64,000 bases of DNA from NCBI GenBank assembly GCA_027603945.1, contig JADIIU010000012.1, positions 1 through 64,000 on the forward strand. Reading direction: 5' to 3'. A program made the position numbers and the translations under genes. The stretch is from Terramyces sp. JEL0728. Lineage: Eukaryota; Chytridiomycota; Chytridiomycetes; Rhizophydiales; Terramycetaceae. The notes under the pieces were generated by a model. That model did no database searches and had not been told where the DNA came from. It worked only from the letters and a program-made list of their open reading frames with translations. Shown one piece after another: positions 4,924 to 63,502 of this stretch (its first letter is position 1; each line of letters begins with the position of its first letter).

Positions 4924-7139
4924 ATGACACGAACTGTAAACACAGAAAACTCTCTGAATGGCCAAGAAAACAAATTGAAAATGGACTCTGATGAAAAGAT
5001 TCCAGCAATTGTGGATTATACCCCCAGTCCAACCTCAGGATCAAGTAGCACAAATCAAAATTCCTTTGCTTGTACGCACTGTCGTAAACCTTTTGCAACT
5101 ATTGCAGATAGAAATATGCATATACTACGGCAGCACAGCCAAAAAGGTACCTTTTATTTAATTGTAGATCCAGACGAGGTGTTTGAATGTACATTATGCA
5201 CGAATAAATACAATTTTAAAGAATATATGCGGCATGTGTGTGCCAACGAAGATGATGAAACTTCCAAATCATCTCTGAAATCAACCAGGAACAATAGAGT
5301 GGAAAAAGTTACGGATCAGCGCAGTAGCAAACAGAATTTGGATTGGAATACTAGTGTTAAATCGAGTCGCCAGATAGCGCCAGATCCAAAAATAGTATCA
5401 AACAGTCCACTGGAAACTCGAACGCCAATTTCAGTAGAGTTGGAAGAGTTTGTTAGTAACCAAATGAATATTATTATGTCCAAACCAAAGATATCCTGTC
5501 CATCTTGCAGCAAAATCTACGACTATCAGGATTTTATCACGCATGATTGCCAGGTGGGGGATAGTCAGACACCACAGGATATTGTAGACGCTGGGAAAAG
5601 AGATACATTTAAAAGAGCTATTAAAGATGCGTTAAATTCTACGCCCAAACGGAGTAGGGTTGCTAAAGAACCTCCAAGTAATAGTATACAGGATACATCG
5701 CCAGACATTGCATCTGAACCCTCAACTGTTTTGTTAGATTCTGCAGATACAAATAGCATAGGAACAGTAGAATTGGACGACTCTGTAGAATTGCAACTGG
5801 ACGATGCGGCTTCGCTGTCGCATGACAATGATTTGCAAGTTCATACAGTACGGATAGTAGACGATTCGCTTTTAAACTTTGAAAAAATAATTGCAGAAAA
5901 AATATTAGAAACTCCAATTATGGATCGCATAGAGAGAGCTGCATACAGCCAGAAAGCGTCTCTTCCAATACAAAAGAATATATCGCACTTGGGGGTATCG
6001 GGAACAGGGAATGGCATACCACTAGATCCACCAGGCACCCATCGATCTGATTGCACTTTTTCAGATAATTGTAAAGCAAGCTTCCAAAAGCACGGATTAA
6101 TCAGTCAAAAATTGACAGGATATCAACGTCCAATTCTGGATTTCCCACGCTCAGCAAATACTATCAACGGCTGTCAAGAACCCCGGTTAACTGAAAATGA
6201 TTCCGTCCCAACTCGTCAACCTGAAGGCGACCGGGATTCTCAGCCAAACAATAGTTTAAATCAAACACTATTGGCAGCCATCCAATCTAATGTGCCTCTT
6301 TCAGCCAATAATTCGATAAACCCTCGAGTGCAGTATTTTCCAGCCGCTGCCATACTCCCAAATCCAGTTGGCAATTCAGCCTCCCATTTTCAAACTGCAG
6401 CAAAGTTACATATACCGCCTGTTAATCCAAACCGCGAAAGAGTTCATGTGCCAAGCGGAAACGGGAATGCAACGATGCCGTTTAATCCAAGCAGTATTTC
6501 AAGCCAAGAAAAGGTTTATGATCCGAGCTTGATTCCAGTCCTCCCTAAGTTTATTGTTGAAAACCCAAGACCACCTCCTAATTCACCCAATTTGGAGCTT
6601 CAAGCGACTGCAACGCCAAAACGCACAACACATAACGGGGCGAAATGCTTTCCTTGTTACGATTGCAAAGAAGTTTTTGATACCAGAGGTAAGCGCTATG
6701 TCCACCAAAAGAATATACATACGCAGGTGTTTCATTTCAATTACCCAGATGAAGGCAGCTTTGAAATCAAAAGAGGTGGCGAATTCAAATGTCCACGTTG
6801 CAATCATGTTGCTACCTCTTACCGGATGCTTCATTTGCACATAAAGAGGTGTCTCATAACGGGGCTTGATGTTTTTGGCCCATTCAAGTTCAATTGTACA
6901 CAGTGCGATGAAATCTTTTGTTCTGAGCATGATAGGAATACCCACTTTCAAAACGTCCACCGCACAGTCTTCCAGATTAAATTTAACGATGGAGGTAATA
7001 TTTTTTAACCCAGAAACTTTAAAGGTGGAAAAGAAAGATTCCTTTTCCTGTCCTAGATGCAAAAAGACGTATAATACTGGCAGATTATTACAAACGCATG
7101 CTAGAGCGTGCCCTAAAGTGGTTCCTACGATATATCCAT
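4924..7139 (+). CDS. Large modular C2H2/C2HC zinc-finger protein, 5' part
   Basis: Starts at 4924 (MTRTVNTENS) or at the later Met at 4981. One 19-nt intron (6995-7013, phase 1) restores the frame. The protein is mostly disordered, Ser/Pro/Asn rich, with finger pairs near both ends: CTHCRKPF...H...H followed by F-x-x-I/V...CTLC...H...C, and CYDCKEVF, CPRCNHV, CTQCDEIF and CPRCKKTY units. Each module is a C2H2 finger, a beta-like linker (F-x-I/F-x-x-D-G) and then a C2HC finger. After ACPKVVPTIYP the frame meets either a stop at 7145 or a phase-1 donor at 7140, which can join to the next zinc-finger segment at 7447. I think one gene is more likely than two. Such proteins usually bind nucleic acid; no specific family is recognised. 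Confidence 0.7.
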
Positions 7140-7446
7140 GTGTGTAATATTTAATTTAACTTTTTCTACTTTTGCAGTCAATTTGCTGAGAGCAACTGAA
7201 CGATGAATGTGATTCAAAAGGGCCACTGCAATCGATAGCCCTGAAACAGCTCCTGATCAAGGATTCCCAGAGGCTAGACCTATTCAAACTCCTTTGTGGA
7301 TCTTGGAAATGCCTCTAATTTGGAGGACTGCTAATTCTTAATAATCACCTTTCAAGTTAGATCAATTACTTTTCCTTTATTTTGACCAATATGGAATGGA
7401 TGTCAACCGTGCTCGATTTGCTCCAAATTTTTTACGTGATTCAAAA
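7140..7446 (+). other. 307-base interruption inside a zinc finger (long intron or insertion)
   Basis: GT at 7140 and AAAATAG at 7440-7446 give a phase-1 splice that joins KVVPTIYP to STCKDCDLQYE, restoring a finger just like its neighbours. It would be about fifteen times longer than typical introns here. An alternative is a 34-nt intron (7144-7177), after which the frame soon stops. A weak C-box-like ACGATGA near 7200 and several CTGA motifs make a hosted snoRNA conceivable but unproven. Confidence 0.45.
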
Positions 7447-10400
7447 TAGCTACTTGCAAGGACTGCGACTTGCAATACGAAACAGATATAGATTTCATCA
7501 ACCATAGACGGAATATGCATTGGAAAAAGCTTACGTTAAAGTTCGATGATGGAGGTAAATACCATTAATTCAGAAACTTTCCGAATAGAACCACCATACC
7601 CATTACAATGCCCGCGATGCCTCGCACACTTTGACTTGCCACACAGTCTAAAATCGCATGTTAGTATATGTCACGACTTTCAGTGTTTCGAATGTGAAAG
7701 AGTTTTTCAAACAAGGTCAGATATGAAGCAACATATTGCGCAGCACCACCATGAAGAGACCACCATGTGTCAGAAGTGTTCAAAGATATTCTTCACAAAG
7801 CTAGAATTGTCCAGCCACGTATTTGAATGCTTAATTGGGAATGAATTGACTCAATATCTTCAACAGTCTTTTCAGGAGGTTTTGGCCAGTAACCGATTCT
7901 CATCAAGTCGGACTACAAGTGCGGATAATAGTGATGACGAATTAGATTTTGAAAATGGGCTAGGTTTGAGCAGCGCTCTCGTGCCGTCCTCTCAAAACTC
8001 TCCTGTTATTAACCAACTAAAACTGCCAGTAAATACGCTCGATGACGTGGATATCAACTCTGATATATTTGATGAGCGCATTGATGAAACGCTTGTTTAT
8101 GAGGATCACCTCCTCTCTGTTTTTGCAGGAGCCGAATTACAGACTAGCAGTTACCCACAGTCGCACCCTAGTTTTGGAATGAAGAACATTGATTATTTAA
8201 ATACACCGTCACCATATCATCCTCCATTTTCAGGAAAAGAGTTGCAGACGTACCCACATCTTGGATATCACCCTACTATTTCAGGAAAAGATTTACAGGC
8301 AATAAATCCCGCTGCTGCACCCCGCCCAACGGTTTCGGGAAAGGATTTGTCGGTACTGGCATCTCCTGCACATTCGACAGTGTCATTAAACGAGTTGCCT
8401 GAACCTCCAACTTTTTCAGGAAACTACCTGCATATGCAAAGCCAAAGACCAACTTTTTCAGGCAAGGATATCAAAAGTCTCCTAAACAAAACAAAAAGGA
8501 AAAGGGTTCCCAAAAGATATTCTAATCCGTCATCTAGGGATGAGATGTCTTTTGAAGAGATTCTCAGGAACGACCGAAAGTCGAAACGAGAATCATATGA
8601 ATTTTCTTTTCGGGACGGAGGTACGAATAATTTAACATAGAAACCATATATATCAACAATGGAGATGATTTCAAATGTCCAAGATGCTGTTTCAACTTTG
8701 TGCATGAAAAGGACGAACTGCAGTACCATATGAATTTCTGTCTCTACCCAAAGATCCAGTTCAAATGCCTTACTTGCGACCTTTTGGTCTCTGACAAACT
8801 TGCACTGAAGAAACATAACCTTCATACCCATCGAGAAGGATACGTGTTTGTTTTCTTTAACGAAGGTAGATATTATTAACGGTAGAAAGTTTTGCACTCT
8901 CCAAAGGACAAGAAGCCTATGCATGTATTCGGTGCAAAAGATTGTGCAAGTACTCCAGCGGATTGAGAAACCACATAACAAACTGCACAATTGTCCCGTC
9001 ACGTCCAGCATCTGATGATGATTTTGGCGACACTATGCCAAACAGAAAGCCGGCTCGTTTGACTACACCTGCTGCAACTCCAAAGGTGCAAGCTCAAAAA
9101 TTAATTACTCCAGCACATTCTGGAAAATCGACCCCAAAACGGAAAGCAAAAACCCGTCCAAAATCTGGAAAATTATCTTCCACCAAAAGCATCGTGAAAT
9201 CTAGGAAAGCTCCCCAAGCTAAAATTCCAGGAAAGTCGATTCCAAAAAGTCAACCTAAACAGCCAGCACAATCTGGAAAAGGGCAGCCGCATAAATCAAA
9301 TACCAAGGCACAACCAAAGAAAGAAAATCATGTCCAGTCGCAAAATGAATCCCCTGTGCCAGAATCAGAAAAAGAACCATCTAAAGAAGAGGCTGTTTTG
9401 GCACTACAGAATTGGTTGAAAAAGTATCAGAACATTCCCAAAGTCAATTCTGAAGCAATCGGACCAATTCAAGAAACGAGCAATCAAACACTGGTCGCAG
9501 TTGAAATTGGAGACTGTGAAATGCCGCCAGAAGATATCCCAGTCCTTGGAACTAATCCGGAACCCGCAAGCAACCCTTCAAAAGTTAACCACAATGTGAA
9601 TTCTATCGAAACAGAAATAATTATCCAAAATGCAAACCGCTTTGAGATAGACAGTTGTGTTCATGCTCAAACTAAAGCCCATCGCAACCCAATCGTGGAT
9701 TCGGATGAAGAAACCCCAGCTGGTAATGTGCGTGTCACACGTAGTCGAAGCAGATCTAGCAGTGCAACAAAAAGTCCGCGAAATGCTGGAAAGAAACTGG
9801 AGAGTATTCCTCAATCCGAAAAATGGTGTCTAGACTGTGATCAAGAATTTCCCTCTGAGATTTTGGTCAAGTATCATTCTCTTTTGGTTCATTCAAAGAA
9901 GAGTTTAGTTAGTTTAGATGACCGTGTATACATTGTTTTTCCTGAAGACTTGAACTCTCCTGTAATCTGTGTGAATTGCTTGAACGATATTCCAAAAATG
10001 GATCTGGAACATCATCCTATGACTTGCAATGGACAAAATTTGAAAAAAGTGGAAATATTCTGGGAGGAGAATACCAAAAAACATACAGACGGCTGCGATG
10101 GCTTGGGAACACAGACGGTGTTGGAATTTATGGACCAACTTCTCCCTAAAAAACTATTTTGTGTGAAGCGAGCTATATACCAATGTACACAGTGCTATGA
10201 ACTTTTCTTTTCCCAGGCAAAATGCCGTAGTCACGAATACGATAATCATATGGATTGTGTTGTTTATCTTGAAAGCGGGAAAAAGTTTATGGCAAAGAAA
10301 GATCCCGGCGGAAGGTATATTTGTCGCTGCTGTTCGAGAGGGTTTTCACAGATTAGAGCACTTCAAAACCATGCCAAACATGGTTGTGTAGCTCCGAGTG

Positions 10401-11731: not shown

Positions 11732-11836
11732 TTACTTTTAATAAACCACACTAGAATGCTGAAATAATATCCACAGCACAGGAATAGTGCGCTTTCGTTC
11801 CAATTCAAATAAAATAATTCCGGAAGATAAATACAT

Positions 11837-17005: not shown

Positions 17006-18493
17006 ATGACAGAGATCTTGCCATTGGAGATATCTGAGCAAGATAAACTAAAGGCGGAACAGCTTAAAAAAACTGCTAATGACTACTTTAAAGATGGTGA
17101 TTACGAAAAAGCCACTGATTTCTACACTCAAGCAATCTCTTTCAATCCCCAAGTTTGTCAATACTTTTCAAACAGATCACTAGCGTACTATAGACTCGAA
17201 TTATACGGCCAGGCTATTCAAGACGCTTCGGATGCAATTAAAGTAAATCCTGATTTCGATAAAGCATATTGTAATTTTCACTAATATAGACCGAAGAGCT
17301 ACTGCATTGGTAGCATTAGGAAGGTTAAAAGAAGCAACCAAAGATTTAACCAAAGTCATTCAGTTGAATCCAAATGATCGCTTAGTAAGACAAAAACTAA
17401 AAGATTGTCAACAAGAATACAAAAGAATTGAATTTGAAAAGGCCATTCAAAGCGATGATCAGAAATCAGCCGTTGACCAATTAGGCGATATCGATTCTAT
17501 TGTAGTTGAAGATTCTTATGATGGTCCGCATTTGAACGAATTGAATTTGGAATTTGTAACGGAATTGCTAGACTATATGAAGCAGCAAAAGAAGTTGCAC
17601 AAGAAATATCTGTGGCAAATGATGATCCAAATCAAGAAATATTTTGAAAGCAGACCCTCTATTGAAGATGTTGTCATCCCTGAAGGTGCAAAGATTACTG
17701 TGTGCGGTGATATCCATGGACAGTACTATGACTTGCTCAATCTGTTTGAATTGAATGGGTTGCCGAGTGAAACCAACATGTACTTGTGGAATGGTGATTT
17801 TGTAGATCGCGGCTCATTCTCTGTTGAATGCGTAATCACACTGTTTGCTTTTAAACTCTTGTATCCAAACTCTGTCTATTTATCACGGGGTAACCACGAG
17901 GCCAATGATATGAACAAAGCATATGGATTTGAAGGAGAAGTAAAACACAAGTATACCGAAAATACATTCAAGCTATATTCGGAAATATTCAACGCTATTC
18001 CATTAGGAAACTTGATTATGAACAGAATACTTGTCATCCATGGAGGATTGTTCTCTAAAAAGGGAGTTACTATTGATGATTTAAGAAAAATCAATAGATT
18101 CCAGCAACCTGGGCAATCCGGATTAATGTGCGAATTATTGTGGTCAGGTAAATCTATTTAATATCAGATCCTCAGTTCTTGCCTGGTATTGGCCAATCGA
18201 AACGCGGAGTAGGTATCCAATTCGGTCCAGACATTACCAAAGAATTCTGCGACACCAATAATTTAGACTGTATCATTAGATCACACGAAGTTAAACACGA
18301 CGGCTATGAAATTGCACACGAAGGTAAATGTATAACCATTTTCAGCGCACCAAACTACTGCGATTCTGCAAATAACAAGGGAGCTTATATACATATCAAC
18401 CCCGCTTGTGAATTAACGTACAAGCAATTTACAGCTGTTCCACACCCTCCTATTGGACCTATGAAGTATGCCGGTGTGTATGGAAACATGTAG
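17006..18493 (+). CDS. PPP5: Serine/threonine protein phosphatase 5 (TPR-PP2A-like)
   Basis: Three exons with introns 17271-17289 (19 nt) and 18148-18167 (20 nt) give 482 residues, the usual PP5 length. The N-terminal three TPR repeats (about 12-120) bind Hsp90 C-termini in known PP5. The splice at 17271 restores FDKAY-YRRATALVALGR. The phosphatase domain shows all PPP metal motifs: GDIHGQYYD, GDFVDRGS, RGNHE and HGG. The splice at 18148 restores CELLWS-DPQFLPG, a conserved PP5 stretch. PP5 dephosphorylates Hsp90 clients and is auto-inhibited by its TPRs. The stop lies only 24 bases from the next gene's start on the same strand. Confidence 0.95.
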
Positions 18494-18517
18494 TCGAATA
18501 AAATTACATATTGTTTC

Positions 18518-45933: not shown

Positions 45934-48609
45934 CTACATGAAATACATGACACTTGTCAACTCAGGTTTTACAACTCCAAATGACTTTTCGCGAGCGGTA
46001 ACGCTGCTGTACATTGATGACGGTCTACTGTATTCTTCATCGTTATCTGTTGTGTGGAACCTTGCGCGAGTTGCAACCAAATGGGCATAGTATGCTGGTG
46101 GAACAACAGACACCGATCTAGTAGCCCTGCAGTACAGGTAGCATAGGCGGTAAGTAAGTTCTTGCAGTGTGTTTGAATTCAGATTGTTTTCGTCATGGAG
46201 AACATGATAATGAGTAGGCTTTGAAGTTCCTGTCGTTAAGCAAATTAACCTTGTAAACCAGGATGCGAGCACAGATAGAAATCATATTCCGAGGGATGAG
46301 TAATTTTTTGCTCAATGACAGTTCCAGGCAACACATTTCCAGATTTATCAGAATCTTCTTTCTTGATTGGGAAAAATCTTGCGTGATGCCTTTTCTGCAC
46401 TGCGACATATGTAATTGACGGTCTATAGCCGGTTTCAAGCGTTTCACATGCCTGTAGCATTGACTCTAATTCTCTCTTTAGTACCTCTTGGAATTGGGAC
46501 TCTGATACTGCATCGCGATACAGAAGGATAGAAACTGGTTTGACACCTGTTGTTTTGTAGAATGTCTTCAAGATTTCAATCAACATACCAGATAAATCCT
46601 GTATCCATTCCATTCTGCCTTTTTGGGACCTGATAGCTGCAGAGTAACGGGAGCATTGCGCATCCAGCGAGCCTACCAAAGCAGCAATTGAAGTGCTAGC
46701 AGATGAACCGACAGCAGGATGCTAGATTAGAAAACAGTTACAGTGACGTCAGCGCCAATAACAATGGTTGGCTTTTGCCCAATGAAAGGCAGTTGTATAT
46801 TCGAGAGATAGCTATTCATACCACCCAGCTTCACATTCATCTTGAGACAAACATTTGCACAATATTGTCTCTTGGCAGCATACAAATGCTTTGCCTGAAT
46901 ACATTGAGTTGCAACGCCAACTACAGTATCAGACACCCTTTTAATTTCGGCGTAAAGAGGGACTCCAGTATTTGGCAAAATACAGAGAACCAGCTGAGGT
47001 CTTGCTTGGTAAGAATTTCCTGCAACCATGTACGCATCAATCAAAATCTTTTCAATGTTTCCATTTGGAGATGCATAGGTAATTGGAGGCTGTTTAGCTT
47101 TTACAAAGACACCGCATTCTTCACACGTTTGGCAAAGTAGAGTGATGAACTTTTGGCAAGACGGAACAGGAATGTCTTGTTCAGTTCCGAAAACCACCAC
47201 CGACCACGAGACAAGACTGACACCTTGGGCCACCATCTTGTCTCTCAGGTTCCAAGAGCCTTCTGAAGGCGTGATTGTTGGTTCCTTTGAAGCAGGGTGA
47301 TAAGAAATAGTAGGCGGCGGCAATACTCTTGCAGGAACATTCATCATTTCTCTTCCAACCGAAATTCCAAAATCTTTCAAGTAGGCATCATCTTTTTGTT
47401 GCAATAGCGTGATTCCAGCCGCGATTTTGTTTGATCTGATATGTGGTGGTTGACAGGTGAATTTAATCATTTCCGAAGTCTAATATTATCTCTCAGTTAC
47501 TTGTCTTTCATTCAACTTCTTCATGTGTCTCTGTCCAGGCACAATTTCACAAACTTCCATTGGCAAATAAACAGCTCTGCTTGCTTCTCCAACTACAATC
47601 AAAGGAAGCTGTGGGAAAGTGAGATCCATTTTGTACTTGTTGATAAAGTAATTTGCAACAGTTTCTTCCGTTCCAGATTCATTCAATGCAAAAGCTGTTC
47701 GGTGCGCGTCGGTTGTGGTTAACTTTGCAATCTTGTACTTTCTTCTAATTTGTCCTCTATGAACCACGACAATCTTTAATCCTTTGATTGCTTTTTCAAC
47801 TCTTTGTCTGTCCTTTTCACTCAGGGGGCCTCTAATATCTAACGGCGAGTGTTTCCCCAAGATTTTTGCGGCGATATTTACAACGGGGCCTAGCGTTAGA
47901 CTGAACTATATTGAAATCTTGGATTTCTTATACGCACCTGCTTGGTAAAAGGCGGTTGCTGAAACATCCAAGTTGACCAATAATTGCCCATTTGCTGGCT
48001 TCAAACTTTGGTGGAAACCTTGCCATAATTGGACGCCATTAGCAATAGTAACTGCTGCGTCTGGAGTATAAAAGCACCTTCCAACAGTTGTAAAATTTAA
48101 TGAAGGACGCTGCCTCATTACAACGTCCAACACTGCCAGCGCTTCGGTTGGCACTTCGCTGCTCAATCCCTTTAAATAAAGACGTAATGAATCCATCGAA
48201 ACACTTGTGATTTTGGTCAAGGTCATTTCAAACTTTTTTGGCACTCTTTCCAAACACTTTAAGGTTGGGTTTTCACTAAATTAGAGCCGAAATACCATGG
48301 GGGGAATTCGTCTTCCTCGTAGTAATCAATCAAAAATACCGCCATGTCATCAAATGGCATTGGCTTTGGGGAATACATATTGAACCTCCCATCAAACACA
48401 GGTTTGACGCCGTCTAAAATCCCCATTTCGTTGGAAGCGGTTTCCCATAATTGAAAAATCTTTCTGTTCTTTGCTGGTGGGACGTCTGGGATAATGGAAA
48501 CGCTGTAGTGGTGAACTTGTAAAGTAGGCAGCGAGGTTAATGAAAAAAAGTTTGATCTGACTTGAATTGGACGGCCAATTGTTCCTTGGTCTGGCCTCTT
48601 TGGGAACAT
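45934..48609 (-). CDS. AGO: Argonaute protein with slicer residues
   Basis: Six exons joined by introns 48257-48276 (20 nt), 47890-47937 (48), 47480-47500 (21), 46722-46741 (20) and 46230-46249 (20) give 848 residues, normal for eukaryotic Argonautes. Domains in order: N, linker, PAZ (about 220-345), MID and PIWI (about 520-820). The splice at 46722 restores IGADVT-HPAVG and the one at 46230 restores [16 protein letters not shown]. The catalytic residues appear present: D591, E631 (RMEWIQDL), D663 (YRDAVSE) and the THYHVL histidine, so target cleavage is likely. It implies a working RNA interference pathway. Confidence 0.95.
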
Positions 48610-48952: not shown

Positions 48953-50420
48953 TTATTGCTTGCGCGCTGCAATCCTCTTTTCAATTTCTGGTCTGAAGTG
49001 TCTAATTAAACCTTGTACTGGCCAAGCCGCTGCATCGCCCTAGAATTAGACTAAAATTACCAATGCGCAGATGGTGTGCCCTTCGATCTGTCTGCTTAGC
49101 TCGTCAATCATGTCAATTTCTGCAGACTTTGCATTTCCATTTTCAAACCTTCTCATCATATTTGCCATCCATGTTGTACCTTCACGACACGGAGTGCATT
49201 GTCCGCAAGATTCGTGTTGGTAGAAAGCAGACAGACGTGAAATTGCTCCGACAATATCAGTTGATTTGTCCATAACTATCACAGCGGCTGTTCCTAACCC
49301 GCTTTGCACATCTTTCAAAGCGTCAAAGTCCATTAATACATCATCACAAATCTTTTTTGGAATAACCGGTACCGATGAACCACCAGGGATAATACCCAAC
49401 AAGTTATCCCATCCACCACGAACACCTCCACAGTGCTTTTCAATTAATTCCTTCAGAGGAATAGACATGCTCTCTTCAACAGTGCATGGGTTATTGACAT
49501 GTCCAGAAATGCAGAATAGCTTTGTACCTTGGTTTCTTGCTCTTCCGAATTGTGCAAACCAGTCTCCTCCTCTTCTACAAATGGTTGGCGCAACAGAAAC
49601 AGTTTCAACATTTGCAACCTGATGTTAATCCATGCTCCAAATATAATAGATTATATCTAGTTACTTACAGTGGTGGGACATCCAAATAGCCCGACATCGG
49701 CAGGGAAAGGAGGCTTCAATCTTGGTTTCCCTTGCTTTCCTTCAATGGATTCAATCAATGCTGTTTCTTCGCCGCAAATATAAGCACCGGCACCTCTGTG
49801 AATATAAACATCAAAATCGTATCCACTTCCACAGGCATTCTTTCCAATTAAACCTTCTTTGTATGCTTCATTGATCGCGGTTTGCAAATTGCTGGCTTCG
49901 TTATAGAATTCTCCACGGATATAAATGTAAGCAGCAGTTGCGTTCATTGCCCTGCCGGCAACAAGACATCCTTCGACCAATTTGTGTGGGTCATGACGAA
50001 GAATTTCACGATCTTTGCAAGTACCTGGCTCTCCTTCGTCGGCATTGATGACCAAGTATCTAGGTCTTCCATCTGGACCACCTGGCTTATTCATGAACGA
50101 CCATTTCAGCCCAGAAGGGAATCCTGCACCACCTCTACCACGTAGCCCTAATGTAAGCTGTCATATTGAGTGAATATTCCAAAAAATCAAAAATAAAGAA
50201 ATCCGCACTTACCAGATGCTTTAACTTGGTCAATGATCCAAGTATCTCCCTTCAAAAGGATATCCTTTGTGCGATGCCAATCTCCTCTCTTCAAAGCACC
50301 TTTCAACTTAAAGTCATGTCTTCCATATAAGTTTGTGAAAATTCTATCTGCATCAGTGAGCGAGTATTGCTGAGAAGCTGTCGCCAATTTCCTAGTGGAG
50401 TTTTTGGAAATCCTGAACAT
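48953..50420 (-). CDS. NDUFV1: Complex I 51-kDa subunit NDUFV1/NuoF
   Basis: Four exons joined by introns 50148-50212 (65 nt), 49619-49668 (50) and 49040-49060 (21) give 443 residues. The start [18 protein letters not shown] is a mitochondrial presequence. The splice at 50148 restores [16 protein letters not shown], the NADH/FMN site. [15 protein letters not shown] and [16 protein letters not shown] follow. The N3 iron-sulfur cluster cysteines are seen as SCGQCTPC plus the later HTICALGD, which the 21-nt intron divides. The protein takes electrons from NADH into complex I. It carries two of the three longest clearly resolved introns in the window. Confidence 0.96.
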
Positions 50421-50687: not shown

Positions 50688-53600
50688 ATGCCAGACGACT
50701 ATATTCGAGACAGATACGAGGACGAGGACAGGGAATCCAGAAGGAAACACAAAAAGCGTTCGAAAGAAGAGAGAGAAGAGAAGGACAGAAAACGGCATCG
50801 CAGTTCGAGGGATGCGGAGGAAAGATATAGCTCACGAGAGCATCGTTCAAAGCATTCAGAGCACTCTGACAGGGAATCGCCAGACGATGAAAAAGAATAT
50901 CGCAGTAGAGAAGGAAAACACCGCTCCAGTAGAGACAAGGAGCCATCTGAACGGAGGTCTTCCAAAGAGGGCGAATATCGAGAACACAGGTCTAGCAAGG
51001 AACATCGGGAAAGAGAGCATAGATCATCAAGAGATGACTATTACGATAGGGAAGAAAGACATTCAAGGCATCCCAGCAGAGATTATGATAAATATTACGT
51101 TGAAGAAAGATCTTCCCACAGAGATTATGATAGGTATCCTGGCGACGACTATGAGAGACGAGACAGAAGGGAAAGGAGCCACAGAGAGGATTCAATTCGT
51201 TCCCGAGACCATGAAAAATACAGAGATGAAAGACGGCCAGATTCTACAAGAGACGATCGTCGTTCCGCGTCAATGCATGAACGCAGCGGTAAAAGATCAG
51301 CTTCTATACACAGAGAAAGTGTTGCATCGGAAATCAAATCTTCGAAATGGGACGCTCCTCCTCCGAGAAAACTAACTGCTGAGGAAATTGAGCATGAAAA
51401 GATGCTCAAAGAAGAAGAAAAGGTCTTGGAAGCAATCAAAGCCCAAGAAATCGCAAATGTAAGTAAATGGTTAACTTTTAGCGTGAAGCAAAAGAGGAGG
51501 TTCGTTATACTATGAGAGAAGCAGAAGATAAAATTAAGGAACGAAAGCTAAGAGTAGAGCAATGGCGTAAAGAAAAAGAGCTGGAAGAACACCAAAAACG
51601 AGAACGAGAAGGTGCGGTTGTTGAAGGTACTATTTTGTTTAAAACAGAAACCGCAAAGAAAGCCTGGAATTTGGAAGATGACGATTCCGATGGCGACCAA
51701 GATAATGTAGGACCAATTAATGCTGACGAAGATGGTACTGCTTTTCTAACTGTAGACTTTTTACTTGTCCAAAAACAACCCGAGTTCAAAAAACCGAAAA
51801 GAACAATGTTGTTTGGGGTTCGTGCGAAAGAAGCAGTAGGCAAGAGTGTAGTCGAATTTGGACTTAGGAAAATAGTAAAAAAGACACCCATCCACGAAAA
51901 CAGAGTTGTATTTGTAAATGAAGAAGAGGATGATATTGAATTATTATCCGAAGCTGCCCAGCCAACCCCAAGTGCCGACATTTTGGAATCTGGTCAATCA
52001 GTAATAGAATCTGTGGTTGACTCTGAACAAGTAACTGTTCCTAATGTCGATACTAATGATGACACTTTGGGGAAAGAAGGTATGGATGTAGAAGAGGACG
52101 AAGTGGATCCGCTGGAGTCGTTCATGAACCAGGTTCATCAAGAGTGCTCACAGACCATTGAGCAAGATAAAGTTACACTGGAAAAGCATATTGAAAAGAC
52201 TAACGACAAGACAGCTGTCGAAGCATTAAGCGATGTATCGGAAGAGGAGGAAGAGCCAAACTTTGAAATTAACAGAGCTGAAATCATTGCTGCCGCTGAA
52301 GCCAAACTAGCCATCAAAAAGAAGGAGCTGCTTGAAGTCGACCATTCAAAGATAAAGTATGAAGAATTTCGCAAAGACTTTTACAAAGAGCCGCCAGATT
52401 TGGCAAGTTTAACTGAAGAGCAGGTGGATCAAAAGAGACTGGATTTAGATGGCATTCATGTGAGAGGAAAGAACTGTCCAAAGCCTGTTGAAAAGTGGAC
52501 TCAGTTCGGTATGCCGCCAGGTGTCCATGAAGTGATCAAAAAGCTGCTAAAGTACGAACGACCAACGCCAATTCAAGCGCAATCTATTCCAGCAATTATG
52601 AGTGGAAGGGATGTAATCGGGATTTCAAAAACAGGCTCCGGGAAGGTAATTTTACTTAACTATAGACTATGGCATTTATCTTGCCAATGTTCAGACATAT
52701 CAAGGATCAAAGATCTTCTGGCCCTCAAGAAGGTCCAATTGGCTTGGTAATGACCCCCACCAGAGAACTGGCTGTACAAATCCACAGGGAAGTCAAGCAT
52801 TTTGCCAAAGTGCTAAATTTACGCGCAGTATGCTGCTACGGTGGATCCCCGATCAAAGACCAAATTGCAGAGTTGAAAAGAGGGGCTGATATCATTGTAT
52901 GTACTCCTGGAAGAATGATTGACCTGCTTTGTGCAAATAACGGAAGAGTTACTAACCTCAAAAGGGTGACTTATTTAGTGCTGGATGAAGCAGACAGAAT
53001 GTTTGATTTAGGGTTCGAACCACAAGTTATGCGTATGATTGGCAACGTTAGACCTGACAGACAATGTGTGCTATTCTCAGCGACATTCCCTCGATTCATG
53101 GAAGCACTTGCAAGAAAGATTTTAAAGAGACCGCTAGAAATTCTTGTTGGTGTTCGTTCAATTGTGGCAAAAGAAGTTACTCAGATAGTTGAAGTAATTG
53201 AAAACGAAGAAGCAAAGTTCTTGAGACTGTTGGCTGTGCTTGGAAAGTGTTCTGATGAAAATCCAAACTCAAAGTTCTTGATTTTCGTTGATCGTCAAGA
53301 AGCCGCCGATGGAATGATGTCGAGTCTCTTTAAAAGAGGGTATCCGTGTTTAGCACTTCACGGTGGCAAGGATCAAGCTGATCGTGACTCTGTTATCCAA
53401 GATTTCAAGAGCGGTGCTACAAATATTCTAGTGGCCACTTCCATTGGTGCAAGAGGATTGGATGTCAAAGATTTAAATGTTGTTATAAACTATGAATGTC
53501 CAAATCACCATGAAGATTATGTACACCGCTGTGGACGTACCGGAAGAGCAGGAAATAAAGGAACAGCATATACCTTTATCCTGCACGAACAAGCGGCGTA

Positions 53601-54399: not shown

Positions 54400-54488
54400 T
54401 ATATCGCATCGAGTTAGAATGCTATTGATAAGCCAATCGGTATTTCTGATCTAGTCCTTTGCTAATTCGACAATGAACAAAATCTTTA

Positions 54489-55294
<806 letters not shown>

Positions 55295-55601: not shown

Positions 55602-55640
55602 TTCCTTGCAGATCAAAATTATTTTTTTGAAAATCTCAAA

Positions 55641-56458
55641 ATGTCGAAAATGGACTTTGACCTACTTACTTCAGCTCAATCGAGACTGAATCCTATGAAT
55701 GAAAGAGAATTAGATCTTCGCGGTTTCAAAATCCAGAAAATAGAAAACTTGGCATTAACAAGAGATGTGAACGACTGCGTTGATTTTACAGACAACGACA
55801 TTGCCAAACTAGGTAGCTGATATTAACCATAGGTATTTAAACGACTGATTTAGGCAACTTTCCTTCAATGTCAAATGTAAAGACGTTATTATTGCACAAT
55901 AACAGAATCAACAAGATTGAATCTACACTATCGAAATATCTGCCAAATCTTGAAAACTTGATTTTGTCTAAAAATGCGATAGTGGAATTGGGAGAATTGG
56001 ATCCATTGGTAAGCCAAATCTAACCAAGATGGGATTGGAAAAATTGAATACGCTGGTGCTGGTTGATAATATCGTCGCATCAAAGAAACACTACAGGTAA
56101 GTTGCATTCTAAACTAGGTACGCTGGGATTAACTAAAGATTCTATGTCATCCATAAAATACCATCCGTCAAAGTTTTAGACTACAAAAAAGTTACTGAAA
56201 GTGAAAGAATAGAAGCTTTGAAACTGTTCAGCGGAAAAGAAGGCAACGAATTGCTCAAAGAATTGACTGAGCGAGGAATGAATGCCACATTTGATCCAGA
56301 AGAAATCCTTGACACTAAAAAGTAACTTTTATTTAACAAGAACCATATCCAAGGAGGAGCAATCGAAGATTAGGGAGGCAATCAAGAATGCAAAGACGCT
56401 CTCGGAAATAAGCCGTTTGGAACAAGCGTTACAAGGTGGAATTATCCCGGAATTATAA
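55641..56458 (+). CDS. LEA1: U2 snRNP protein A' (SNRPA1/LEA1)
   Basis: Five exons give 231 residues, close to the usual 235-255. The start is MSKMDFDLLTSAQSRLNP, then leucine-rich repeats (ERELDLRGFKIQKIENL, VKTLLLHNNRINKIEST, LENLILSKNAIVELGEL), the C-terminal cap HYRFYVIHKIPSVKVLDYKKV and the family tail EAIKNAKTLSEISRLEQAL. Ordinary introns are 56009-56028 (20 nt, ends AAG) and 56322-56340 (19 nt, ends AAG). Two further gaps, 55813-55853 and 56097-56138, each look like two micro-introns placed end to end. U2A' binds U2 B'' and stem-loop IV of U2 snRNA in branch-site recognition. Confidence 0.93.
55813..55853 (+). other. Back-to-back micro-intron pair 1 in U2A'
   Basis: 41 bases must be removed to join IAKL-GNFPSM. 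They divide into GTAGCTGATATTAACCATAG (55813-55832, 20 nt, TTAAC branch motif) and GTATTT...CTGATTTAG (55833-55853, 21 nt), each complete with GTA and TAG ends. They could be two introns with a zero-length exon or one long intron with an accidental internal AG|GT. Confidence 0.7.
56097..56138 (+). other. Back-to-back micro-intron pair 2 in U2A'
   Basis: 42 bases must be removed to join KKHYR-FYVIHK. They split at AG|GT into 56097-56117 (GTAAGT...CTAAACTAG, 21 nt) and 56118-56138 (GTACGC...ATTAACTAAAG, 21 nt), each the size of a standard intron of this genome with its own branch-like motif. Confidence 0.7.
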
Positions 56459-56697: not shown

Positions 56698-59391
56698 ATG
56701 CAAAAACGGAGGCAGCGACTCAGCTACGTTATTAAGGAAGACTACCACTCTCATCTGCACAGACAAGGAATAAATACTCTTCTCATTAACGACGATTCCC
56801 TCTTTATCGGTTCTAGAGACTCTACAATATCGCAATGGCACATCAATAATTCTAAAATACAACCGAAAAACAAACAAGTCGCAAGGATAAAACATGACAA
56901 GATTAGAGTCAGTTTTGATGATGATTTGGAAGGAAAGAAGCAATTGGGATACGACAAGCAAGTTGAACTCAATATCAAAAATATCCCAAAACCCCAGGAA
57001 TCGAATCATTTGAAATCCTTTGAAAAGCATAGTGATTGGGTCAATGATTTGGTGCTGTATCAAAAGAAGCTTGTTAGCTGTTCGTCTGATAGGTCTGTAC
57101 TTTTATGGGATATACAAACTAGAGATGTGGTAAGGTTGGGGTATCACGGTGATTATGTAAAGAGGCTGGCACAACCAAAGGAACAAAAGTGGGTTGCTTC
57201 GGGTAGTTTGGACAGAGGGATATATATATGGGATTTGCAAGAGGGGAGATACGACGATCCAAGGATACTTGCAAAAGATGATAATCCATCTGGCTCGATA
57301 TATGCTTTGGCGTGTAATCCGACTGGGACATTAATTGCATCAGGGTTCATTTTAATTAACGATAGAGCTCCAGACAGAATAGTGAAATTATGGGATACAA
57401 GATCTAGGTCGGAAAAATACAGTAAATTGCAGGGCCACTCTGATGCAATCAGAGACTTGCTGATTAGCGAAGATGGGAAATGGGTTTTATCCTGTTCATC
57501 AGATAAATCAATCAAGCTGTGGTCCCTTGCAATGCCAAATCACTGTGTTGAAACCTACAACTATGCCGAAGACAGTGTGTGGTGCCTACACACCAATTCA
57601 CCTACTTTTGCTACATTCTGGGCTGGGACGAAAGATGGATGGGTATACAAAATTAGCACCGAATCCAAATACGATACTGATTGCATTGCAATTTGCCAGG
57701 AGGACCAGCCAATATTGAAGATAGCTGCGGTTGAAGATTCGTTTATCTGGACTGCTACAACAGACTCGACTGTCAATCGTTATAGAGATGTTCCATTCTT
57801 TGAAAATGAAGAAATTGTAATTCCAGATGAATGCTGTATTGGACCAGATTTGGATATAGACACGGAATCAGTTTACTCCAAGCCAGTGTCAATTCATTCG
57901 TACAAGGAAGAACACGGCTCGTTAACCAATACTGTTGAACTGCAAGACCCGGAAGATCAGGGTGTGCTACCATGCTGGACCAAACCCTATGATACAATCC
58001 AAGGCGTTCCTGGAATCAAGAAGTATATGATATTCAACAACAAGCGATTTGTGCTGACTGAAAATAGTGTAAAGCAAGTGTGTTTATGGGATATTATTAC
58101 GTGTGAAAAGATTAATGATTTTGGAACTGCAGATTTCGATAAAATAGCAAACCAAGAAAACTCTCTGGAATGGGTAGCGAACTGGTGTACCATTGATACA
58201 AAGAATGGCGATTTGACAGTTCATTTGGATGAAGGAAAGTGTCTGGATAGTGAAATTTATCACCAAGATTTGCAACTGCTGGTTGATGCCACTAATGAAG
58301 ACCAAAGAGTCAATCTGGCTAAATGGACTTTGACTTATTTGGTTTACAACTACCTCAAAAGAGTTTATCCAAACAATGTTAGTTTTACAAGGAATGCCGG
58401 GCAGAGCATAAGAGAAAACGATCCAAACACACCCTCAATGAAAGTTTCACTAGCAACACCGCTCACACTGAACTTGCCTGACGAGCCAAACGGACTGCTT
58501 TCTCCCACAGCTGGCATACCGCTAGGAGGTGTTTCAAATACCAACTTGATCTCTCCTCAAGGAGCCGTTGGGCTAACGAGAGAAAACAGTTCGGCAGATA
58601 CCAACACTCCCCCTCAATTGCAAGTGGTTATACCTGAAGAAGACACAGTGCCGGATATGACAGCACCAATGCCAGTTCAAAGCCCAGAAACTGCAAGTCC
58701 AAAGAAAGGCACGCAAAGATCCCCATCGTTTATCGATAAATTCAAGTTTTTGAAAAACAGAAACAGTAGTGTCAAGTCTACAGAAGAAACCCCACCAACA
58801 CCGCCTGAACCCGCCATTCAAATACCACTAAATGAAGAATTTATTAATCTGGATGAAACTCCTCCGCTGTCACTGAACCAGAACATCCCAATCATATTTT
58901 CTATTGAACAGTCGCCATCAATGTATGTGGATACTTTCAAGGGCAAACTGCATGATTTATCTGTATATCCAAACATTGGAGAAGTCGTCCCATCGTGGGT
59001 TAAAGACTGGATTGTGAATGTAAATCGAATTAACCTCAGCGTAATCAGCCACAAAAAGATGCTGCAAAACTAGCATTCATCTTGACAAAGCATCCGCGTT
59101 CGCAACTGCAAGAACTCTCCCAAGAGTAATTGTTTCTAATCTAGCGCAAACCGCCTTACAGCAAACCGTATGCTCCGCATACGCAAAGTGATCCAGCATT
59201 TAGCTTCCCAGCTGAATATAGCTGTTGATACAGAGTGTGTAGGAAGCAAAGAGAAGCAAAAAGGCGTCTATATCGACATTTATTGCAACGGTAAGCTTAT
59301 CAGTCCCAGACACACACTTGCTAGCGTCAAATATGTTCTTTGTAAAGGTGGTGGGCCTGATATTGTATTCCAGTATTTGGAGCGATTTTAA
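56698..59391 (+). CDS. WDR48: WDR48/UAF1-like WD40 protein
   Basis: Three exons joined by introns 59020-59039 (20 nt) and 59126-59144 (19 nt) give 884 residues. The N-terminus RRQRLSYVIKEDYHSH and NTLLINDDSLFIGSRDSTI match WDR48; about seven WD40 blades follow (for example KKLVSCSSDRSVLLWDI and KWVLSCSSDKSIKLWSL). A disordered Pro/Ser region (about 590-730) is followed by the spliced C-terminal ubiquitin-like part: DWIVN-RNQPQKDAAKLAFIL, NRLTANRMLRIRKVI and TLASVKYVLCKGGGPDIV. WDR48 activates the deubiquitinases USP1, USP12 and USP46; the yeast relative DUF1 acts with Ubp9/Ubp13. The last two exons would be missed without micro-intron splicing. Confidence 0.92.
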
Positions 59392-59615
59392 TATAGTAGT
59401 TTTTGTAGTGATTCATATTGCCTGTCACTTTTCTTCTCTCTGGCATTCCCACGCGCATACAGGCATCGTACTACATTGCGGATCATAGTGGATGCCACTG
59501 TTGAATGCTGTCAGTCTACCCTTTTACTCTTTGGTGATTGGCCAAATCCATGTGGCGCATGTTTCCTATTTCTTTCTTTCCTACAAAAAAAGCGTGAGAT
59601 TCAGCTGATACCAAG

Positions 59616-60351
59616 ATGTCAAACGGAACCACCAACAAAGATGACGGGAATAACGTAAGCAGATCGCTAACAGTAGTTGCTGGAACAAGAATATGATATG
59701 CAAAAGTAAGCTCTGCTAATATAGACGACCTATAAGCGATTTCGACCTGCAAAAGTACCTGAAATTAATAGTAGACAGCCTAATATGGATCAACAGCAAT
59801 TCTTTGGTAAATATAATTAATAGTAGCGTTTGCTGCTGCTGCTGCCGCGCAATACGGGAGCCAGAATATCAATAATATCAACCCAGATCTCGCACACATG
59901 CTAATTCAACAGCAACGCTTACCAGATCAAAGCTACGACCAATCCTCAGAGTCCAAACCAACCGTTGGTTCGCAAGAGCATATAAGAATGAAAAAGGAAA
60001 CACATCGTGAAGTATTACGGTTTAATACAAGGTTGAAAGACGTAGACGGGAAAATATAAATGCTGGAATTCAAGAGTTGGCAGAATTAATTCCGGGGCAG
60101 GAAAAGAACAAGGGAAGGATACTGCAAAGAGCCGTGCAGTATATTCACGAGCTGAAGCAGCAAGATTCAGCCAATATGGAAAAATGGTCGCTGGAAAAAA
60201 TGTTGTATGAACAAACGTAACTGGAATTAAAGGTAGGATCCAAGACTATTTGGCTCAAGTTGACGCTTTGAAGCAAGAAAATCATAGGTTAAGACAAATG
60301 TTGCCGAGTGAAAGTGGGAATAAGAGACAAAGAACTGACGACCGGCAATAA
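59616..60351 (+). CDS. bHLH-leucine-zipper transcription factor (USF/CBF1-like)
   Basis: Seven exons joined by six micro-introns: 59655-59676 (22 nt), 59706-59724 (19), 59755-59774 (20), 59807-59826 (20), 60012-60031 (20) and 60217-60236 (20). They give 204 residues in an unbroken frame. The basic region spans the fifth intron (ETHRE-VERRRRENINAGI) with the H-x-x-E-x-R arrangement of E-box (CACGTG) binders. The helix-loop-helix follows (LAELIPGQEKNKGRILQRAV, then QYIHELKQ), and a zipper (LAQVDALKQENHRLRQML). An Ala run lies near residue 47. In yeasts and animals this class regulates metabolism and chromatin. Three of the first four exons are only 29-32 bases long. Confidence 0.88.
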
Positions 60352-60470
60352 ACGTTTTTATTTAGTATCTTCCCGCGTAACCAGATATTTGTGAATAAGT
60401 ATCCAAGTCGTCAAGGGGATCTTCAGCAGTTTGGCCGCCGAATGCTTCGGAAAAGAAATCGCTCGTGCGT

Positions 60471-61986
60471 CTAGTTTGAGTTCGTTCCTTCAACTGACTT
60501 GGTAAATTGGTCTACATTAGTAATTATTACTCCTAGTGGCGCGTACTGGAAGCTCTGGTTGAAAAAGTTGTTGGGTTGGCGTACTGGAGAGATATTTGGA
60601 GTGACTGTTGGTGCAAGTGATTTAGTTGGCGAGACTTTCTTTTTGTCCAATTCAACATGAATACTGCCGTTGATTTTAGCATCCAATTGAACATCAATAT
60701 CACTTTTGAAAAATTTAAAGTCGCTCTGTTGTTCCCGAAGGTTCTGATGCAAATGCCAAGTATAGACACACTGCATTGCGTTGCCGGCTTGTTGGTACTT
60801 TAGAAAATCCTCCAGCCGATTAATTTCACCCAGCTGCCTGTTCAACTCAATTTCATCTCCCAATAAAACTGTAATCTTTTTTTCAATAATCTTGTTGCAT
60901 TCGTCTTTAGCTTTTTGGCATATTTGATCAATCTGACAAACGATTTCTTTGCCCATGTTAACTACTGCCTCGGCTCTTGAATGGATATTATGGATTTGCT
61001 CTTGAATCATATTTGTTCTGTTGTGCATATTTGGATTCGCCTTGATTAGTAACACGTACTTTTTGTGTTTCTTCGAGTACTGACTGCAGGTAAACGTCAA
61101 CTCTGACTAGCGTGTGTTTGCCTTCTTTAGGGGTATGGCTGCTTAGTACCGAACAGTCGATACATACCGGTTCGTGGCACTGAGTGCAAAAGTATTCGAT
61201 TTGGCGTTCAGGATGATGCTTGCAAGTCCCAAACACATCCATACCTTCGCCGATAGGTTTACGTACATGCATGCCAGCGATTCGAGTGCTGTGTACTAAT
61301 CCATCGCACTTCTTGCATAAATAGGCTTTATCCGCATCGCAATAGCAAACAGCAGTTTCCGTTTCGCAGTTATCGCATTTTGGTTTTTGCAGTGCGTTTT
61401 GTTCCATTTCTGGATCGTATTCGTATTGAACCAAGTATCGTGGCAAAACAAAGGAGGGATTCTTGATATGGTACTCGTGTTCGTAGACAGAACTCTTTTT
61501 GTTTTCATCTACATTAACAGTAATTACCGTGAATATAGAAGCTCTTGTATCCTTCTGGCAACTCTGTATCATCGACAAGGCTTTTTTCAATGGGGAAACT
61601 TCTACCAACGATTATTTGGCACAGCAAGGCTTTGTGTACTTTCTGTCCCTTGGACGGTGCCAATCTGCCGACTTTGAATTTCAATCCTCTTGATGGTGGA
61701 CTGATTTGAAACCCTCTTCTGATTACATCTTCTTCCGTATTACCACCAACCAAGTCAGAGGTATCAATCCAAGTTGGAAGCGATAAATTTTCCTATTTTA
61801 GTTTCAATCAACTTGAGAGTATTTTGAGAATTGCGATGCCAAGCTAGGGTTTGAGAGTGTGTAGCAAGAAAGAATACGCGCAGTTGATGAATTCAACGAG
61901 ATTCGTAGGTCGTACTCTAGTTCAAGTATTTCTTGGGTATTGTTTTTCGTCAATGTTTTTGCTCCAGTTTGTTCGTTTGTCAACAT
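60471..61986 (-). CDS. Two-B-box coiled-coil protein with PARP-like N-terminal fold
   Basis: Four exons joined by introns 61793-61812 (20 nt), 61509-61527 (19) and 61041-61059 (19) give 485 residues. Residues about 45-195 resemble a PARP-type ADP-ribosyltransferase fold (RGLKFKVGRL, KALLCQIIVGRSFPI, LPEGYKSFYI, YEHEYHIKNPSFVLPRYLVQ). No HG[TS] motif is seen at the first strand, so catalytic activity is doubtful. Then come two B-box zinc fingers (CDNCETETAVCYCDADKAYL and CKHHPERQIEYFCTQCHEPV), a coiled coil and a disordered tail. B-boxes mediate protein contacts in TRIM-like and CONSTANS-like proteins. The PARP-like call is by eye. Confidence 0.75.
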
Positions 61987-62234
61987 TTTAGTAAAGACGC
62001 GTTTTGGACAACTCTTTTCCTCGAGTTGAATTCTATCGGATTAGTAATTATCGTGAGTAGCCTCCAGAATTAAAGTATTTTCAATTGCTGCTTCCAACCT
62101 GCACACCACATTAATGTTTGTTGTTTCTCGTCCAGATAACTCTGAGCCATTATCAATTGTACGGATTGCGGTGGATTCACTACCAAAGATGATTTTCAAT
62201 AATTCTTTTTTTGCTTACACGTTGAATAATCTAA

Positions 62235-62826
62235 ATGACATTTTTGCACATACTCTCATACATTGGATATTTCTTTGGATTCCTCTTTCTTGCGTATTCG
62301 CTAGGTACTCGTAACTAACAAAAGCAACCGGATTGTACTACATTTCAGAAATGGTTGAAGAGTACACAGTAATGTCGAAAAGAGTGATTACGTATACTAT
62401 AATAGTACGGTATTGCTAACTAGATTATCGCAGGATACCATGTTTTACTTTTATTTGATCAGTTATCGTTTACAAGGACTTTTATTTCGTTTCTGTTTAC
62501 ACTATGGTACGCTAGATTACTGGACCATTTCCCAGTGATTGATCTTACAGGGCCGATATTTATACTCTCTTGCGGTACTATTTATTAACCTAGTGTTTGC
62601 GGTAATCAATCATCTCATGTGGTTCTTTTATTTCAAAGAAATCCCGCACCGGTTTATTGAGATGGTTAGTTTCTTTATTCTGATTGTGTGGTTGATTCCG
62701 TTCATGTTTATGATTTCTCTCAGTGCCAATGACTTGGCTTTACCGTATGATGACAGCAGAAAGAAACAAAAGAGTACATTTAGAAGATGGCTGCATGTCT
62801 TGCTGTTTAAAAAAGATGATATATAA
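62235..62826 (+). CDS. SVP26: TEX261/SVP26 family COPII cargo adaptor
   Basis: Four exons joined by introns 62305-62324 (20 nt), 62405-62423 (19) and 62575-62593 (19) give 177 residues. The spliced protein has about five hydrophobic segments and the family landmarks ATGLYYISEMVEEYTV, SFLFTLWYARLLDHFP, GPIFILSC-VFAVINHLMW and IVWLIPFMFMISLSANDLALP. In yeast Svp26 sorts type II Golgi mannosyltransferases into COPII vesicles; the GT71 enzyme at 3.4-4.6 kb is the kind of protein it carries. All three junctions restore conserved residues, so the model is firm. Confidence 0.92.
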
Positions 62827-62892
62827 ACCCATTATTACTATTGTATGCCAGCTCAATAATTCAAGTATTTTTGATTCAAAAAAACTTTGAAA

Positions 62893-63502
62893 ATGATTTT
62901 CAAACGACTGTTATTTCCAAATATAAAAAGATTCAACAGCAGCCTACCGTTTCCAGACTCTCTCTCAAAAGCCCTAAACCCAGTCGGCTACGTAAAATGG
63001 AAAATGGGAGTAATCGATGCAGGCAGGACCAACTATGAAGAATGTGCTCAGCAATTTGAAAAGACAGATTTGAACCTACCTTCAACATTTCAATCGTGGT
63101 TTTCAGTCACTATTTTACATGTGTGGATGATCAATAAGCGGTTATCGCTGGAAGGAGAATTGGGAAAGGATTTACAAAAGGAGATGATTAATCATATATG
63201 GTTGGATGCGGAAATCAAGTTACATCAAGCTGGCGTTAAAGCGAAAATCAATTCTATTATCAGCGATCTTGTAGGACAGTATCAAGGCAATACATTAGGC
63301 TACGATGAAGGACTATTCTATGGCGATCAAATATTAGCGGGTGCGCTATGGAGGTAATCGCTTGCTAATTAGAAATATTTATAATTGTGATAATGTGGAA
63401 TTTGAAAAGATTTTGAACTTGCTTGTCCTTGTGAGACAGAGGTTGAATTACCTTGAACAATTGGATAGCAAAACTGTGATGGATGGTAGAATAAAATTCT
63501 AG
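62893..63502 (+). CDS. CBP3: Ubiquinol-cytochrome c reductase assembly chaperone UQCC1/CBP3
   Basis: Two exons joined by a 19-nt intron (63354-63372) give 196 residues. The N-terminus MIFKRLLFPNIKRFNSS is a mitochondrial presequence. The chaperone domain has LPSTFQSWFSVTILHVWMIN, EMINHIWLDAEIKLHQAGV and, across the splice, YDEGLFYGDQILAGALWR-NIY. CBP3/UQCC1 works with CBP6/UQCC2 at the mitoribosome exit to insert and protect cytochrome b for complex III. It starts 66 bases after the SVP26-like stop on the same strand. Confidence 0.94.

Follow-up and report, generated by a model that had tools for sequence, protein, structure and literature searches.

Evidence for introns of about 20 nucleotides, and for stacks of abutting introns, in the chytrid fungus Terramyces sp. 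JEL0728

Introns measure 18-21 nucleotides (nt) in chlorarachniophyte nucleomorphs, 16-17 nt in mikrocytids and 15-16 nt in heterotrich ciliates, as outlined in PMC10245619; for fungi, an excerpt from a survey of 644 genomes offers Cryptococcus, with a mean of 63 base pairs (bp), as its short-intron example, and that excerpt makes no mention of an ultra-short class. Here we describe predicted introns of 19-22 nt in Terramyces sp. JEL0728, which NCBI taxonomy places in Chytridiomycota, Rhizophydiales, Terramycetaceae, and whose nearest relative by adenylate kinase is Boothiomyces (96% identity). The stretch under study, called the window throughout, comprises bases 1-64000 of contig C12 (197,221 bases) in an assembly of 15.0 megabases (Mb) and 231 contigs. 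The explanation that we consider best overall, at a probability of roughly 0.9, is that ordinary U2-type introns have shrunk, have been duplicated in tandem into stacks of complete introns, and are removed unit by unit. The first-pass annotation of this DNA had set its gaps of 19-23 nt beside nucleomorph introns (18-21 nt) and those of Stentor (15-16 nt), figures that agree with PMC10245619, and had known of no such case in a fungus; the literature titles and abstract openings listed, a scope outside which most subscription journals fall, yielded neither a counterexample nor any report of fungal introns this short, and the host is indeed a fungus.

Evidence that these introns are genuine comes from a peak in length on DNA outside the window. 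We used a hidden-Markov gene finder whose first pass carried a uniform intron-length prior of 10-150 nt and no motif, requiring only GT and AG ends; for the second pass it was retrained on its own genes, again blind to length, with splice-site matrices learned from introns of all lengths. Our independent test region was C1:1-200000, unseen by the author of the first-pass annotation, and the intron survey covers 264 kilobases (kb) of 15 Mb. On C1 the first pass placed 54 of 136 GT-AG introns at 19-23 nt, whereas the same finder run with four decoy dinucleotide pairs placed 5/106, 11/109, 3/104 and 9/105 there; after retraining, 234 of the 457 C1 introns were 19-22 nt long. Spans of the form GTA...TAAY...AG, counted in the same 200 kb, number 74, 91, 58 and 33 at 19, 20, 21 and 22 nt, against 13-32 per length at 24-69 nt, and the reversed sequence, with its higher background (20-60 per length at 24-69 nt), has no peak (45, 35, 38 and 36 at 19-22 nt). 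The window alone is weaker: the first pass gave 8 of 25 introns at 19-23 nt (decoys 0-3 of 20-24), and raw GT...AG distances are in excess at 19 nt (441) and not at 20 nt (371), other lengths counting 336-416. Retraining brought the window to 43 of 123 introns at 19-23 nt (11, 22, 6, 3 and 1 by increasing length), fewer than the 51 that had first been reported there (16, 25, 7, 2 and 1) and of similar shape. Loci on C2, C21, C42 and C55, where the finder was confined to 17-26 nt, also fit the pattern. The earlier description of such introns as genome-wide thus gains from the peak on C1 and from these loci, and goes too far if taken to mean every intron, since NDUFV1 seems, from its sequence, to have longer ones of 50 and 65 nt. 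Many model calls above 26 nt are model noise, and we take as such most of the retrained C1 calls outside 19-22 nt, which form a thin spread up to 150 nt. Tiny introns (18-24 nt) average 3.7 per predicted gene longer than 450 nt, with at least one in 64 of 78 such genes; at the density of 291 in 264 kb, the 15-Mb genome would hold some 16,500.

The anatomy of these introns is uniform. A branch motif scoring 8-9 of 9 against YTAAY is present in 223 of the 291, in keeping with the YTAAY-like motifs near the acceptor that had been noted initially. The branch adenosine of the 223 lies at position 14 (103 introns), 15 (80) or 16 (19), 202 in total, and in 191 of them the distance from this A to the intron end, the A included, is 6 nt (89) or 7 nt (102). 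Acceptors are TAG (193), CAG (56), AAG (36) and GAG (6). Among the 276 introns of 19-22 nt, the donor, which resembles GTAATT, has A at +3 in 244, G at +5 in only 55 and a GTAAGT start in 10. The branch and splice matrices were trained on this same intron set, which favours the motif; the GTA...TAAY...AG span counts and the AGGT-only stack test described below are free of matrices. Taken together, the GT-AG ends, the YTRAY-like branch motif at a fixed place, the single peak in length on a contig independent of the window and the exact joins of conserved residues described next support, as far as the available sequence tests go, assignment of the tiny introns to the U2-type spliceosomal class. 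They are almost certainly real. From the in-frame stops found in 58 of 66 introns of 21 nt (37/65 at 19 nt, 86/126 at 20 nt) we conclude nothing, the finder being blind to stop-free introns of length 3n; the 21-nt counts resemble the known stop-codon bias of 3n introns in Paramecium (PMC5014332). Apparent donor differences between length classes were likewise rejected, false long introns blurring the comparison.

The predicted introns of the window and the support for each are as follows.

17271..17289, plus strand: 19-nt intron in the TPR part of PP5; gene model, ungapped at the join against solved PP5 (residues 16-476)
18148..18167, plus strand: 20-nt intron in PP5 at LLWS|DPQ; join ungapped against solved PP5
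46230..46249, minus strand: 20-nt intron in Argonaute, splitting the G codon of LQ(G)TS; join ungapped against human AGO2
46722..46741, minus strand: 20-nt intron in Argonaute at GADVT|HPAVG; join ungapped against human AGO2
49040..49060, minus strand: 21-nt intron in NDUFV1; gene model
49619..49668, minus strand: apparent 50-nt intron in NDUFV1 with GTAAGT donor; sequence and gene model
50148..50212, minus strand: apparent 65-nt intron in NDUFV1 with GTAAGT donor; gene model
52646..52665, plus strand: 20-nt intron in Prp5/DDX46 at GSGK|T; join ungapped against human DDX46
54739..54757, minus strand: 19-nt intron in adenylate kinase; ungapped against yeast adenylate kinase, 100% identity to the NCBI Terramyces protein
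55027..55045, minus strand: 19-nt intron in adenylate kinase; support as for the preceding one
55813..55832, plus strand: U2A' stack 1, unit 1, 20 nt, abutting unit 2; KL|GNF ungapped, the NCBI model removing the whole 41 nt
55833..55853, plus strand: U2A' stack 1, unit 2, 21 nt; alignment to the solved protein and NCBI model
56009..56028, plus strand: 20-nt intron in U2A'; gene model, alignment and NCBI model
56097..56117, plus strand: U2A' stack 2, unit 1, 21 nt; alignment and NCBI model
56118..56138, plus strand: U2A' stack 2, unit 2, 21 nt; alignment and NCBI model
56322..56340, plus strand: 19-nt intron in U2A'; gene model, the NCBI model instead having 52 nt, to 56373
6995..7013, plus strand: 19-nt intron in a repeated C2H2 zinc-finger module at DG|E; gene model

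The PP5 and Argonaute joins LLWS-DPQ and GADVT-HPAVG had already been singled out by the first reading, and they hold up in these alignments. Adenylate kinase, when spliced from 54489-55210, is identical over 227 amino acids (aa) to the NCBI protein of the same strain, which means that the deposited annotation already removes both 19-nt introns; the deposited U2A' model of this strain agrees with ours at every join but that of the last intron, removing both stacks as well. For NDUFV1, the residues around the 50- and 65-nt introns appear to be conserved relative to the human protein. In the zinc-finger gene the same place of the module is interrupted again at 7555-7573, 8621-8640 and 8866-8885 (19-20 nt), at the same codon and phase as read from translations; these introns look as if copied along with the module.

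Beyond single introns, several genes contain stacks, in which 2 to 7 complete tiny introns are joined at AG|GT with exons of zero length between them (U2A', PP2A, proteasome alpha-6, an SPX protein and VPS34). The U2A' interruptions of 41 and 42 nt split exactly as 20+21 and 21+21 at an internal AG|GT, which corrects the initial picture of single gaps; stacks had no place in it. Longer examples, followed by candidates on other contigs, are listed here.

C55:28855-28963: PP2A stack, 109 nt as 22+21+24+21+21, at LCEK|AREI; ungapped over 302 residues to human PP2A
C30:14748-14828: proteasome alpha-6 (PSMA6) stack, 81 nt as 21+20+20+20, at RSQ|VQRAR; ungapped over 103 residues
C67: SPX protein stack, 19+20+20+20+20, at ELEK|VNNFY; contiguous at the join
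C12:187991-188144: VPS34 stack, seven units, 154 nt, at WNEW|ITFP; contiguous, human VPS34 match of 39.5 bits
C28: putative four-unit stack in a CBS-like gene; homology weak, the CBS match lying below the family cut-off
C91: putative nine-unit stack, 198 nt; no match in a Pfam search
C1: putative three-unit stack
C12:187.3-188.3 kb, minus strand: putative six-unit stack
C128: two putative stacks, of three and eight units; unit borders read by hand
Window 63987..64000 (its first 14 bases), continuing to contig position 64116, plus strand: putative six-unit stack, 21+22+22+21+23+21, in a coiled-coil-like gene; gene model

The PP2A gene also carries single introns of 21, 22, 20 and 21 nt, and its alignment is ungapped at these joins too. 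In proteasome alpha-6 the last three units, of 20 nt, are identical; the candidate eight-unit stack on C128 ends in five identical 20-nt copies, and a search for a second copy of this stack found none. A seventh unit that the model called in the stack beginning at 63987 was judged coding. Chance does not readily produce the long stacks: among 200,000 random GT...AG strings each of 99, 109 and 154 nt, none split fully into units of 17-25 nt, and one of 200,000 did at 81 nt. A test that asked only for the pattern AGGT-N(14-18)-AGGT-N(14-18)-AGGT, applied to 100 listed of 148 places without picking, gave a correctly placed YTRAY in 78 of 154 distinct units (8.8 expected; at most 19 in 500 shuffles), and in both units of 35 of 94 distinct pairs (0.3 expected, maximum 3). 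Chains built on the branch motif in 342 kb comprise 37 doublets, 1 triple and 1 quintuple (simulated 22.5, 0.5 and 0), the reversed sequence, with its higher background, giving 181 doublets, 6 triples and 0 quintuples; in 264 kb, high-scoring units abut at distance zero 5 times, as against 0 reversed, 0-1 simulated and 0-3 for each distance of 1-39. Judged on the sequence evidence to hand, the stacks very probably are real abutting introns.

Several side observations touch the stacks. VPS34 has one unit with a GC start, and single GC-donor units stand within otherwise GT stacks at L046:402-424 and L053:714-735. Apparent duplications within contigs link C27:90556 with C27:117269, C18:70840 with C18:132614, and places near 50 and 80 kb on C42; on C27, one unit of the stack is a single base longer in one copy than in the other, the change falling between its branch motif and AG, which an intron could bear and an exon could not. 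In Boothiomyces sp. JEL0838, the deposited U2A' model (P0131) lacks everything from the site of the first U2A' stack up to an exon further on; perhaps stacks occur in Boothiomyces as well and the annotation broke down at this one.

The splicing machinery of this fungus is partly in view. A U2 small nuclear RNA (snRNA) is present with its branch-pairing stretch GTAGTA intact, the genes for U2A' and Prp5/DDX46 lie in the window, and the U2AF large subunit gives a match of 251.7 bits, below the family cut-off of 310.3, in a search blind to introns; tiny introns are also predicted within the U2AF2-like gene. Some short introns of human cells rely on SPF45 instead of U2AF, as reported in PMC8363638. 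A Pfam search for the RED protein found no match here, nor any in control genomes.

Several results count against the reading that we prefer, the first being that U1 and U6 snRNA genes were not found in searches of the assembly. Two loci scored 27 bits with the U6 covariance model, short of its cut-off of 44, and these are near-identical and read like coding DNA; the 19-nt U6 core, with up to 3 mismatches allowed, occurs in six places, all with 3 mismatches (three backwards) and none recognised by Rfam; and a similarity search with human U6 found no match. The U1 covariance model likewise returned nothing, and of nine places with a TATA element plus the U1 5' end (seven backwards), the only one followed, a candidate on C133 with a full U1 start, was rejected as it looks coding. 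The fault may lie with the assembly or with the searches; U6 might have diverged, be interrupted or be absent from the assembled contigs. The gene finder, too, produced false introns: calls at bases 2723-2740 of locus L038 (18 nt, U2AF2) and at 8844-8865 of the window (22 nt, zinc-finger gene) were dropped since both read as coding. For the last U2A' intron, NCBI places the acceptor 33 nt downstream, making 52 nt of our 19; the 11 residues that this model loses are retained in Boothiomyces proteins. Some counts on stacks are also unfavourable. Random 41-nt strings split into two units in 5,368 of 200,000 cases, and with chance splits so frequent, single doublets are weak evidence, which long stacks are not. 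The AGGT triple pattern occurs at 148 places and its backward reading at 400, so that the raw count proves nothing; a doublet pattern scores 31 against 21 backwards, four of the 31 coming from the C128 stack; and low-threshold abutting pairs in 264 kb number 17 against 24 reversed (4-6 simulated). The case for stacks is one that rests on branch motifs and homology, not on raw counts.

Two further points on that side concern how stacks leave the transcript. The apparent NDUFV1 introns of 50 and 65 nt mean that one-step excision of a whole stack is physically possible, and work cited in PMC4974935 describes an intron of fission yeasts that extends over four 24-bp AGGT copies in tandem. Each stack could then be a single longer intron, excised in one piece between its outermost GT and AG, its inner AG|GT joints being functionless leftovers of duplication; the NCBI U2A' model, which removes stretches of 41 and 42 nt, is compatible with either route. 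A single end-to-end cut, however, should let the inner signals decay. Among the 100 listed of the 148 AGGT places, 53 distinct pairs have a lax branch motif in both units (3.5 expected), and 41 of these are at most 60% identical, as are 91% of random pairs of unrelated introns: most units are as diverged as unrelated introns and yet bear the motif, so that the units would be old and the motif kept. The remaining 12 pairs exceed 60% identity (9% of unrelated pairs do) and look like traces of duplication. Between near-identical abutting copies, 9 of 9 differences fall outside GTA, branch and AG (P ~0.008; five hand-picked pairs, from 13 hand-picked stacks, VPS34 entering with 5 of its 7 units). 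The retention of inner signals favours recursive, unit-wise removal, without proving it. On these sequence comparisons we regard one-by-one removal of the units as probable, and the single cut as a rather unlikely course that deserves to be kept in mind.

How would such an architecture arise? In the scenario that we propose, the chytrid would have shrunk ordinary U2-type introns throughout its genome to 19-22 nt, close to the lower limit at which an intron can work, with a fixed geometry in which a GTA donor is followed by a branch adenosine at 14-15 and the intron ends five or six nt after this A; the geometry is read from sequence, and splicing would follow from it. A slip that duplicates a self-contained GT...AG intron could then leave two complete introns abutting at AG|GT; identical copies, and stacks between conserved residues, are observed, and the slip is what would account for them. 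Each removal would restore a donor beside the exon, from which the following unit could be spliced, as the branch and splice signals kept in internal units suggest. A stack would thus cost the protein nothing, and hence could grow and diverge. Introns would in this way behave as minisatellites do, a unit of some 20 nt being multiplied on the spot, so that growth proceeds by whole introns rather than single bases while the units are excised separately and selection keeps each of them spliceable, a picture towards which we lean by a modest margin. It has also to be asked whether the tiny introns belong to a mobile family (introners) that spread through the genome and built the stacks by inserting at AG|GT again and again. 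Pairs of equal length that differ at no more than 4 sites are in slight excess, 188 against a mean of 142 and a maximum of 172 in a column-shuffled control; the 276 introns in 264 kb nevertheless contain no near-identical dispersed family, the best pairs differing at 2 sites, and neighbours in a stack resemble each other more than unrelated introns do, as the identities above indicate, which makes a mobile origin improbable. That the gaps are frameshifts, pseudogenes or assembly errors has in its favour that each site interrupts a reading frame and is of negligible probability, as such defects would account neither for the GT-AG ends and single length peak nor for a branch motif at a constant place and the exact joining of conserved residues (PP2A, adenylate kinase, Argonaute, PP5).

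Shrinkage and tandem duplication of U2-type introns, if correct, would have consequences for several questions. The spliceosome must accommodate recognition of donor, branch and acceptor within about 20 nt, which bears on the minimum size of an intron. Stacks would let two ideas be tested in nature, the recursive splicing of tiny introns and the gain of introns through tandem duplication; identical copies within stacks suggest very recent multiplication, and diverged stacks would represent its later fate. In practical terms, gene finders with a minimum intron above 20 nt, or unable to place introns back to back, should break many genes here. Isolates of the genus Terramyces have been cultured (PMC11210171). 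Apart from introns, the window holds at 19691-42171 sixteen open reading frames of 298-366 aa on both strands, apparently a single family whose members start with CDFN...GC, are rich in hydrophobic stretches and show no obvious introns; one of them had no match in Pfam and only three database relatives, all from Boothiomyces, and we read the cluster as lineage-specific and receptor-like.

To our knowledge, introns of about 20 nt would have here their first case in Fungi. Terramyces is thus a new host for a known intron class, with the addition of a stacked architecture for which we found no description: the titles and abstract openings listed for recursive splicing, zero-length exons and intron gain by tandem duplication contain no stacks of this kind. 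As to size, chlorarachniophyte nucleomorphs are alike in the narrow length range and large number of their introns (PMC10245619); the nucleomorph is the relic of an algal nucleus, whereas Terramyces has a fungal genome of 15 Mb, and stacks besides. Mikrocytid introns, in the same account, are also numerous and of exceptionally narrow size range; their hosts are reduced parasites of the rhizarian branch, with introns about three nt shorter than in Terramyces. In Stentor, the 15-nt introns have a fixed branch A at position 10 that leaves 6 nt including the A (PMC9505925), as in Terramyces, where the A lies four to five nt farther from the donor and the consensus is strong, which that of Stentor is not. 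As to stacking, recursive splicing with zero-length exons uses an AG|GT joint first as acceptor and then as donor (PMC5126111), and such a joint lies between complete units in PP2A, PSMA6, SPX, VPS34 and U2A'; the recursive splicing so described subdivides larger introns, whereas the units of Terramyces are complete introns of about 20 nt, in homology-supported stacks of up to 7. Fungal stwintrons of the [D1,2] type, two U2 introns removed consecutively (PMC12403724), are akin to stacks, but their inner intron is nested in the outer donor; in Terramyces the units abut without nesting, and in none of the stacks does an internal intron split an outer donor between nt 1 and 2. Introns can also arise where an AGGT segment is duplicated in tandem, with multiple 24-bp copies in fission yeasts (cited in PMC4974935), and AG|GT borders result there too; the process as described copies a segment of exon or an intron-exon stretch, whereas Terramyces has whole introns, each with its own branch motif, set head to tail.

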